Positions 7,531-27,741 of a stretch of 64,000 bases of DNA are shown here, in pieces (within the stretch, counting starts at the first letter, position 1; each line of letters begins with the position of its first letter). The notes beneath the pieces are model-generated. The model saw nothing but the letters and a program-made list of their open reading frames with translations. It was not told the DNA's origin and made no database searches. A program made the translations under genes and the position numbers. The stretch comes from Natronococcus sp. AD-5 (lineage in GTDB: Archaea; Halobacteriota; Halobacteria; Halobacteriales; Natrialbaceae), in assembly GCF_030734285.1 (NCBI RefSeq), contig NZ_CP132295.1:806001-870000 (forward strand). The letters are read 5' to 3'.

Positions 7531-7775
7531 GGCTGTACGCTCCCTACCGTAGCGAATCCGTCGACCGTAATGAGACTAGTCGATGCGGCACGAAAGCCGT
7601 ATACTCGGGGTTCGAGAGCGGTCTCGGTCGACGCTTCACTCTGGGTCCGCTCCCTCGAGGGGCCGACGCGGGCCGCCGGCGAACGCCGCGTCCCGGCGAC
7701 GACCGACGCGCCCTCGGCGCGTGCTTGCGACGAAATCCGGAAGCGATTTTCGGGATGACCCCAATACTGTACACG

Positions 7776-8261
7776 ATGACGTTGCTTATCGACCCCGCGC
7801 AGATCGGCCCGGACGACATCGGTGCGAAACAGACGACCCTCGAAATGGATCACGAGGAGGCGATCGCACACGTCCGCGAAGTGTTCACCGACACGGGGTT
7901 CGGCGTCCCCGTCGAGTTCTCCCCCTCGGAGTTGCTCAACGAGAAGGTCGACAGAGAGGCGCGAAGCGCCTCAAGCAGTCGGACGCAGTCCGACGACGCC
8001 GACCGCGACCCGTATTACGTGCTCGGCGCTTGTAACCCGGCGGTAGCCGACCGAGCGCTCGATGCCACTGACGGGAAACTCGGTGCGCTGTTCCCGTGTA
8101 ACGTCGTCGTCTGGGAGGAAGAGCCCGGTCGACAGCGCGTCTACCACGTCTCGATCATGCGAATCGCGCGACTCGTCGGGATGGCACCTGACGACGACGA
8201 GATGGCGGAGATCGTCGCCGAGACCGGCAAACTCGTCGATGAAGCGTTCGAGGAACTGTAA
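7776..8261 (+). CDS. DUF302-family protein with an inserted hairpin-encoded segment
   Basis: From the ATG at 7776 the product begins MTLLIDPAQIGPDDIGAKQT, as in haloarchaeal DUF302 proteins; an ATG at 7755 is possible. The DUF302 core is seen in MDHEEAIAHVREVFTDTGFG, DPYYVLGACNPAVADRAL and ALFPCNVVVWEE, with two conserved cysteines. The function of DUF302 is unknown. Members often occur beside redox and sulfur genes. Between NEKVD and ADRDPYY lies an Arg/Ser-rich insert (REARSASSSRTQSD) encoded by two tandem perfect inverted repeats. A methyltransferase starts two bases after the stop codon, so the two are probably co-transcribed. Confidence 0.8.
   Translation: MTLLIDPAQIGPDDIGAKQTTLEMDHEEAIAHVREVFTDTGFGVPVEFSPSELLNEKVDREARSASSSRTQSDDADRDPYYVLGACNPAVADRALDATDGKLGALFPCNVVVWEEEPGRQRVYHVSIMRIARLVGMAPDDDEMAEIVAETGKLVDEAFEEL
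7956..7994 (+). repeat. Two tandem 7-bp mini-hairpins inside the DUF302 gene
   Basis: GAGGCGC-GAA-GCGCCTC occupies 7956-7972 and GTCGGAC-GCA-GTCCGAC occupies 7978-7994. Both have perfect 7-base arms and 3-base loops. The insert keeps the reading frame and codes for an Arg/Ser-rich stretch that is out of place in this fold. It looks like a small palindromic insertion element that landed in a surface loop. Confidence 0.75.
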
Positions 8262-8263
8262 CA

Positions 8264-8824
8264 ATGGGCTACCACACGTTCGACGCCGAGCGAGCGGACA
8301 AGTTAGAGGAGGCCGGGCAGCGATACCAGTTCATCTCGGCCGAGGAACTGCTGTGGGCAGTATCACTCTCACCGGACGACACCGTCGCCGACCTCGGTAG
8401 CGGGACCGGCTTCTTCACCGACGACGTCGCGCCCCACGCCGGCGAGGTCTACGCGGTCGACGTCCAAGAGGAGATGCACGAGTACTACCGCGAGAAGGGC
8501 GTTCCGGAGAACGTCGTCCTCGTGACCAGCGACGTGAGCGACCTCCCGTTCGACGACGGCGGCGTCGACGCCGCGTTCTCGACGATGACCTACCACGAGT
8601 TCGCGAGCGACGACGTGCTTGCGGAGGTTCGGCGGGTCCTCGCTTCGCACGGGCGACTCGTGATTGTCGATTGGGCGTCGACCGGGACCGGCGAGGATGG
8701 TCCGCCAGTCGACGAACGGTACAGCGCCGACGAGGCGACAGATGCCCTCCGCGACGCCGGGTTCACTATCGAGCACGAGGCAGTCCGTCCGGAGACGTTC
8801 CTGTTGATCGCGACGCTCGAGTGA
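8264..8824 (+). CDS. Class I SAM-dependent methyltransferase
   Basis: The 186-residue Rossmann-type methyltransferase has motif I VADLGSGTGFFTDDVAP (about 42-58), the acidic motif II region VYAVDVQEEM, motif III-like DVSDLPFDDGGVDAAFS and the following segment ARRVLxxxGRLVIVDW-like. It fits the UbiE/Methyltransf_11 group. The substrate is unknown. The start ATG lies two bases after the DUF302 stop codon, indicating an operon with that gene. Confidence 0.87.
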   Translation: MGYHTFDAERADKLEEAGQRYQFISAEELLWAVSLSPDDTVADLGSGTGFFTDDVAPHAGEVYAVDVQEEMHEYYREKGVPENVVLVTSDVSDLPFDDGGVDAAFSTMTYHEFASDDVLAEVRRVLASHGRLVIVDWASTGTGEDGPPVDERYSADEATDALRDAGFTIEHEAVRPETFLLIATLE

Positions 8825-12101: not shown

Positions 12102-12126
12102 CCGATTTGCTGACCCAGCAAATCGG
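12102..12126. promoter_or_regulatory. Motif A operator, site 1 (dsbA-like promoter)
   Basis: A perfect inverted repeat with 11-base arms and a 3-base spacer; the core arms are GATTTGCTG and CAGCAAATC. It lies upstream of the DsbA-like gene, near position -50 relative to the start codon. The same palindrome recurs at 19180, 20879 and 27715. Confidence 0.8.
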
Positions 12127-19179: not shown

Positions 19180-19204
19180 CCGTTTTGCTGAGCCAGCAAA
19201 TCGG
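19180..19204. promoter_or_regulatory. Motif A operator, site 2, in a divergent promoter
   Basis: 11-base arms with a single mismatch around a 3-base spacer (core TTTGCTG and CAGCAAA). TATA-like boxes flank it on both sides: ATTTTAG at 19213-19219, about 27 bases before the start at 19244, and CTTATCT on the minus strand around 19166-19172. One protein could therefore control both directions. Confidence 0.78.
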
Positions 19205-20878: not shown

Positions 20879-20899
20879 GATTTGCTGGACTGGCAAATC
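20879..20899. promoter_or_regulatory. Motif A operator, site 3 (winged-helix regulator promoter)
   Basis: GATTTGC and GCAAATC arms, 7 bases each and perfect, with a 7-base centre; relative to the other sites the inner bases are less symmetric. A TATA-like CTATTTG sits at 20905-20911, six bases downstream. The GTG start at 20936 is at the leaderless distance. This suggests that the regulator controls its own gene. Confidence 0.75.
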
Positions 20900-24520: not shown

Positions 24521-24861
24521 GTAGTTCGAACGAGAGGAGGGGCGACGCGGCGTCGCCGTTTCGATGCCCTTGTGGCGGCGCCCGTATTTCAGTACGTGAT
24601 TCGGCGAGAATCATCCCGGCTCGAGTCACCCGTAAGTCGGAGTATCGGCGATTGAGGACCGCTCACGACACTCGAGGGGTTTAGATCGTAAAACAGACAC
24701 GTCACAGATAGCAGTAATAGCGGCCGGTATGCGCCACAGTGACGTGATAGCAGTTCGTACACGACGTTTCATTCGATCGCGGTCGCCCGATCGGTGTAGC
24801 AGTCGTATTCAGCGGGCGTTTCGTTTCGAATCGTCATCGTCGCAGTCGGATCTCGTCGGCG
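24521..24861. other. Intergenic region with a 7-bp hairpin
   Basis: No gene is seen in 341 bases. A perfect inverted repeat GGCGACG-CGG-CGTCGCC occupies 24541-24557, about 20 bases upstream of the TauE/SafE start on the minus strand. It could be an operator or a mini-hairpin of the same 7-3-7 shape as those in the DUF302 gene. Confidence 0.45.
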
Positions 24862-27714: not shown

Positions 27715-27741
27715 GACGATTTGCTGGGTCAGCAAATCGTC
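27715..27741. promoter_or_regulatory. Motif A operator, site 4 (carbamoyltransferase promoter)
   Basis: Perfect 12-base arms around a 3-base spacer, with core arms GATTTGCTG and CAGCAAATC. A weak TATA-like GTTTTGC on the minus strand (about 27701-27708) follows at the same spacing as at the other sites. Upstream of the minus-strand carbamoyltransferase. Confidence 0.8.

Follow-up and report, generated by a model that had tools for sequence, protein, structure and literature searches.

Two perfect palindromes in a haloarchaeal DUF302 gene: a probable copy of a dispersed family of coding repeats

A DUF302 family gene of Natronococcus sp. AD-5 carries, in frame and in its interior, two perfect palindromes that are only five bases apart, and the question is what such a sequence is and how it came to be part of a protein. 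The gene lies in the window, i.e., the whole stretch of 64,000 nucleotides that was analysed (contig NZ_CP132295.1, positions 806,001 to 870,000), and the positions below are those of the window. An earlier reading of the letters, which we call the sequence-only reading, described the two palindromes, and both the sequence and a script agree with it. It also proposed a small palindromic element of haloarchaea that is tolerated as a protein insert, and this proposal has stood up, because the unit recurs, its hosts are unrelated and there are orthologues without it. We consider it likely that positions 7953-7997 are one copy of a dispersed and apparently non-autonomous family of two-hairpin palindromic units, haloarchaeal in distribution, whose members lie both between and inside genes. 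The unit is 45 bp long and is arranged head to tail in places. The features are as follows.

7776..8261, + strand: host gene for a DUF302 family protein, 161 amino acids with the insert and 146 in close insert-free relatives.
7953..7997, + strand: 45-bp palindromic unit of 15 codons (REARSASSSRTQSDD), seen as a gap relative to empty orthologues and as a match of 72.9 bits to the covariance model R1 described below.
7956..7972, no strand: hairpin 1, arms GAGGCGC/GCGCCTC and loop GAA, seen in the sequence and by script; the arms covary among copies.
7978..7994, no strand: hairpin 2, arms GTCGGAC/GTCCGAC and loop GCA; genome G049 has TGC in its copy at this site.

The product of the ORF at 7776-8261 matches DUF302 in Pfam (E 4.5e-14). 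The borders of the unit are uncertain by a few bases, GAC being present at both sides. Structure prediction for the protein with its insert gave a mean pLDDT of 56.8, and the sole use made of this low-confidence model is that the insert is predicted to sit between a helix and a strand.

Perfect hairpins with seven-base arms and a three-base loop (7-3-7) number 18 in the window versus 10.5 ± 3.4 expected from 100 order-2 Markov simulations, and a lone hairpin of this kind means little here. A pair with no more than 12 bases between its members occurs once in the window and five times over the 100 simulated windows, i.e., about 0.05 such pairs are expected per window. Chance statistics alone make a weak case; the real evidence is comparative and consists of the 45-bp gap in orthologues and the recurrence elsewhere. 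The hairpin at 24541-24557, which the sequence-only reading set beside the pair, does have the same 7-3-7 shape, but it is not a relative of the unit: none of the 25 window matches that R1 lists up to E 10 lies there. A different palindrome, TTTGCTG-N3-CAGCAAA, is also repeated in the window, with exact copies at 12106-12122, 19184-19200 and 27720-27736, all three at or near the starts of long ORFs, and a weaker copy with two mismatches at 20881-20897 (four matches versus 0.03 expected); it is possibly the operator of a regulator.

The DUF302 family itself offers the first comparison. A DUF302 protein match was present in 93 of the 100 related genomes searched. One relative (L002), 95% identical to the window gene, is without exactly 45 bp in the DNA alignment. 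Only two of the 30 DUF302 loci fetched by protein similarity, L001 and L009, contain the insert, or 6/34 once four filled loci found via the element itself were added, and the solved homologue 1j3m aligns on either side of the site without it, so the loop is not common to all DUF302 orthologues. The L009 gene is about 75% identical and has its insert at the same place as the window gene; its first stem is GAGGCAC/GTGCCTC, altered on both sides relative to GAGGCGC/GCGCCTC, and the loop of its hairpin 2 is TGC, the reverse complement of GCA. Haloterrigena salina JCM 13891 has a further copy in its DUF302 gene, as the pattern search of named genomes showed, and G277, a genome of another family, is filled at the same DUF302 place. 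On a DUF302 tree built with the insert columns removed, from a set that element searches had enriched in filled genes, five changes between filled and empty are needed and monophyly of the filled genes is rejected (p-AU 0.0002). The insert is thus scattered over the tree, which cannot separate gain from loss. The filled DUF302 copies share an AGA start, and this favours, as far as sequences can tell, common descent or transfer over repeated insertion at the DUF302 site; because of it, the transfer of occupied alleles by recombination would be as likely as repeated DUF302 insertion.

The second comparison is with other genes and genomes. Pattern searches of the window's family and of named genomes yielded copies in other genes. 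A search by pattern with three mismatches was rejected as sole evidence, since the counts of its reversed control were of the same order. Covariance model R1 was built from twelve hand-picked copies, and the mirror-image control R2 from the same copies written backwards, which keeps hairpins and composition. At E ≤ 0.001, with 50 candidates scored per genome, R1 gave at least 563 matches in 113 of the 125 genomes of the window's family, versus one match in one of the 125 for R2. At E ≤ 1e-5 it matched 150 of the 243 genomes of the order. In a phylum sample (21 candidates scored per genome) R1 matched 37 of 294 genomes, all 37 belonging to the window's family or order; 16 of the 20 itemized among the 257 genomes with no match belong there as well, the other 237 not being itemized, so that their kinship is not shown. 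The palindrome pair that the sequence-only reading suggested looking for is therefore widespread in haloarchaeal genomes, in unrelated genes and absent from many orthologues, and the objection that it might never occur elsewhere falls away.

The window's own genome has six R1 matches at E ≤ 1e-4, including 7953-7997; two of the others are coding in phase 0 (L109 and L111), one seems antisense (L110) and two are without a clear gene call (L108 and L112). Two genomes of another family, G165 and G277, have 35 and 40 matches, respectively, at E ≤ 0.001, and at five places in G165 the copies have identical scores and near-identical sequence. Phage records contained no R1 match. Four plasmid records did (H1-H4, including a Deinococcus record, H2, and a Halocatena record, H4); the copies in H1 and H3 lie inside annotated haloarchaeal genes, the annotation running across the copy. 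An ordinary stretch of protein loop with codons that are palindromic by chance would be in keeping with the abundance of single 7-3-7 hairpins in this GC-rich window, but such a loop is hardly conceivable in view of the recurrence in unrelated proteins, the mirror control, the empty sites and a covariation of the arms that goes together with amino acid change.

The hosts are diverse. The 94 in-frame copies (one of 95 was dropped) fall into about 45 host groups, an approximate number because the clustering joined a few doubtful pairs (L107; L137/L163). Pfam domains were found in 28 of the 30 host representatives searched out of these 45, and they comprise CBS, Pyr_redox_2, Aldedh, Peripla_BP_2, Beta-Casp, PolX-type domains, DUF2249, PCC, GARS, EthD, histidine kinases, M20, M32, PGA_cap, DUF87, FlpD, a YGR210-like GTPase, sulfatase, GH3, GH68, E1-E2 ATPase, aconitase, molybdopterin oxidoreductase, PPDK_N and adenylosuccinate synthetase. 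PurA, PurD, aconitase, aldehyde dehydrogenase and PolX are among the conserved hosts. At several host sites the insert is present in many species, and many other sites were seen in one genome only.

Empty sites are also found in host genes other than DUF302. For the host genes of G165 and G277, 60 regions from 39 genomes were fetched from a longer match list and 59 were aligned. Three of these genes were each compared within one related genus: the L160 gene is filled in one and empty in 13 of 14 loci, the insert being exactly 45 bp; PurA is filled in three and empty in 17 of 20 loci; and the Pyr_redox_2 gene of L157 is filled in three and empty in seven of ten. With DUF302, this makes four genes in which filled and empty orthologues coexist. 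For L175 and for L158 all three aligned loci are filled, and the L158 gene carries a tandem pair of units in one genome and a single unit in the others; the L163 kinase is filled in nine of nine. Tentative labels, given by reading, for the hosts of L158, L175 and L160 are FTHF ligase, CHY zinc finger and RPA-associated. Beyond the ambiguous GAC, the aligned filled and empty sites show no consistent target duplication, a mark of MITEs that the unit therefore lacks. GAC precedes the unit at 26 of 47 sites and a purine stands at position -3 at 47 of 47, a pattern that as a target site is indistinguishable from codon usage. In L251 and L252, hairpin 2 has three additional base pairs on either side as compared with L250, and the frame is kept; the hairpin is perfect in L251 and has one mismatch in L252.

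It is possible that the family has no present mobility and consists of old inherited insertions that have undergone many losses and been exchanged among species through homologous recombination. The filled DUF302 copies are of one sub-type, several host sites are filled in many species and the tree leaves gain and loss undistinguished, all of which would fit. We nevertheless hold this reading to be somewhat unlikely, since near-identical, equal-scoring copies lie at five places in G165, the copy at L154 is out of phase, 13 of the 14 orthologues around L227 are empty and many sites are occupied in a single genome only.

What allows such a unit to persist inside conserved genes? For the 70 best family matches, the codon usage of the flanks was scored in six frames, with usage trained on this window only. 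Of the 70, 69 had phase 0 of the + strand as their best frame, and this frame was open (66 pass the margin and four are unclear); the sole exception, L269, shares its host site with L098 and L102. The usual phase-0 reading, S-E-x-x-x-x-S-S-S-R-T-x-S-D-D, is a hydrophilic stretch of Ser, Arg and Asp. Counted over 83 copies, the forward frames have stop codons in 1, 0 and 15 of them and the reverse frames in 14, 1 and 1; because in each of four frames no more than one of the 83 copies has a stop, stops alone do not explain the frame bias. The bias, read from the sequences, points to selection on the peptide. It leans, as the pair counts given below do, on picking, because R1 came from hand-picked copies and A2 was chosen with R1. 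Coding copies outside phase 0 include L154 (phase +1) and two weaker matches that seem antisense (L110 and L169).

In genus g33, perhaps Halorubrum, where many copies are intergenic and stand in hairpin arrays, 30 copies of 75 matches were read in two genomes. The 11 copies taken as coding are all 45 bp long, whereas 12 of the 19 not clearly coding ones are 47 or 49 bp, so that a length not divisible by three is seen in 0/11 versus 12/19 (Fisher p 0.0006); ten of the 11 coding calls were made by score and that of L175 via protein orthologues, and the antisense L169 and phase +1 L154 are included. The longer intergenic multi-hairpin arrays of g33 (L138, L149-L151, L153, L155, L167, L170 and L171) contain units of the 45-bp type, and their outer sequences are alike.

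Stem symmetry tends to be kept. Among 83 copies, 75 of them distinct, 99.1% of the stem cells of the alignment are paired, and both stems are perfect in 71 of the 83. The 75 distinct copies have 1050 such cells, with both-sided changes in 138 (versus 42 in shuffles), three G-U cells and nine unpaired ones; eight stem pairs show both-sided changes. Nine copies that entered via protein similarity and not via the model served as a check set for picking bias: 14 of their 18 stems are perfect, versus 17 of 70,527 background positions, and in two of them (L209 and L252), which are decaying, neither stem is free of mismatches. Where copies share a host site, comparison gives 46 stem differences that are both-sided and paired, 20 that are one-sided and one that is unpaired on both sides, the numbers being counts over pairs of copies and not independent events. 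With a paired stem change, two protein residues may change at once.

Loops are found inverted at several host sites. Exact inversions of the three-base loop at one site were found in five host groups (CBS, FAD oxidoreductase, DUF302, PolX and PurD), and a sixth host site has loops GAC and GTC, where one substitution would give the same change. Three hairpin-2 loops match GCA at none of their bases; all of them are its reverse complement TGC, and they are in three different genes. On the other side of the balance, seven same-site pairs of hairpin 1 differ at all three loop bases without inversion, versus seven scored as inverted, one of which is the GAC/GTC pair obtainable by a single substitution. 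A 48-bp variant (L292, L293, L296 and L298) has an 8-bp stem and a four-base loop that is CGAC in three copies and GTCG in L293; to judge from these letters, this loop also appears to have been inverted between genomes.

The symmetry may be explained in two ways. The first is that the hairpins are kept as RNA, where they would slow translation, stabilize the mRNA or bind a protein. Strong stem covariation is what this would produce, and the same units occur in the intergenic arrays of g33. Yet G-U pairs, the usual intermediates in RNA, are rare (3/1050 cells), the loops vary and invert, and relatives manage without the insert in four genes. Nor does any Rfam family reach its gathering score in the stretches tested, i.e., window positions 7700-8300 (one sub-threshold match lies outside the unit) and eight loci, the tested g33 arrays included. 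We give this reading a slight chance. Alternatively, the arms may be kept complementary at the level of DNA. Template switching is reported, in the consulted parts of the sources, to homogenize the arms of inverted repeats in yeast coding DNA, whose spacers it inverts, and to preserve the hairpins of RNA genes (PMC8604942, PMC8794818), and it predicts both the scarcity of G-U intermediates and the inversion of loops. The published cases described there differ from the present unit, which is a repeated family of archaeal elements. We read the symmetry as upheld by DNA template switching in haloarchaeal coding palindromes that resemble the Rickettsia palindromic elements (RPEs).

A likeness to RPEs had been part of the sequence-only reading. 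Compared by description, it holds for the way the element works and not for descent. Like the unit, RPEs are repeated palindromes that lie between genes and are also fused in frame in conserved protein genes (PMC2229807, PMC2996958, as far as consulted). The haloarchaeal family has many copies dispersed in its clade, as the mirror control confirms, and these stand in frame in conserved genes that are empty in relatives and also outside genes, as in the g33 arrays and at L108 of the window's own genome, which is not in a clear gene. RPEs, however, are described as 105-146 bp long with long stem-loops (PMC2229807), whereas the unit has 45 bp and two 7-bp hairpins and is sometimes in tandem, a size and layout that set it apart from RPEs proper. 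Protein-coding palindromes are also reported from Wolbachia and from Methanocaldococcus jannaschii (PMC2229807, PMC2996958), and, to judge by the consulted parts of these papers, they are known from a few intracellular bacteria and one methanogen.

The nearest known elements are, among those whose descriptions were consulted in part, the PATEs and SMRs by host and the CGTC REPs by form. CGTC REPs are likewise short palindromes; they include RPE-4, RPE-6 and intragenic units and, according to the consulted parts of PMC3733652, are without an associated transposase. The reverse strand of hairpin 2 often begins with (C)GTC, a point of likeness to the GTAG/CGTC-tagged REPs. The unit does not belong to the CGTC REPs: theirs are stems of 8-9 bp, loops of 4-5 bases and mostly CCA tails (PMC3733652), in contrast to stems of seven, loops of three and a C that depends on the flank. 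PATEs and SMRs of Haloquadratum walsbyi are, like the unit, transposase-free haloarchaeal repeats without target duplication, and PATEs have near-terminal palindromes (PMC3119063). SMRs, in contrast, are about 80-110 bp long with terminal inverted repeats and PATEs have IS605-type ends, and the consulted parts of the same source describe neither as a coding insert in frame. The open-access literature, covered mostly as titles and the starts of abstracts, with subscription papers mostly outside it, gave no earlier description of such haloarchaeal coding elements.

The PATEs suggest another origin, i.e., that the unit is a terminal-only relic of an IS605/IS200-type element or a REP mobilized by a Y1 tyrosine transposase, its hairpins being fused near-terminal palindromes. 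The two hairpins without a clear target duplication would suit this origin, as would the 52-bp terminal-only PATE forms, which may be mobile (PMC3119063, in the parts consulted), and a weak R1 match of 19.7 bits adjoins the Y1_Tnp match of L311. It is, however, unlikely. Three of the six element-bearing genomes (G165, G064 and G108) have no Y1_Tnp match at E ≤ 0.001, a strong copy accompanies only one of six Y1_Tnp loci, L313, at a distance of about 1 kb, and no transposon bearing such ends came to notice in an unsystematic look.

For the palindromic family as we understand it, the analysis turned up neither a transposase nor a consistent target duplication nor active insertion. New copies would land at many places and in many frames, and within genes selection would retain chiefly the copies with a length divisible by three that read as a soluble loop. 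Template switching during DNA replication would then keep the arms complementary and flip the loops, so that the peptide would change in pairs of residues without selection for RNA structure. Occupied alleles may also pass between species by homologous recombination, and tandem copies may arise through slippage.

An order-wide family in free-living archaea that offers hundreds of copies, empty sites and, at fixed sites, paired changes of the stems makes it testable how short elements spread, and whether DNA template switching or selection on RNA is the keeper of palindrome symmetry. A more far-reaching speculation, with a small chance of being right, is that the coding palindromes flip and rewrite themselves throughout the order, template switching turning the loop and recoding both arms, and that conserved enzymes thereby gain a reversible surface loop with two or many states. 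If this were true, the element would act as a selfish repeat and, at the same time, as a lasting source of paired amino acid changes in housekeeping proteins. For annotators, the family is a warning that the insert alone may produce matches between unrelated haloarchaeal proteins. A weak DUF302 match at G036:C4:209878-210054 overlaps an exact match of the element pattern; it is probably an unrelated protein matched via the inserted peptide, a source of false homology.
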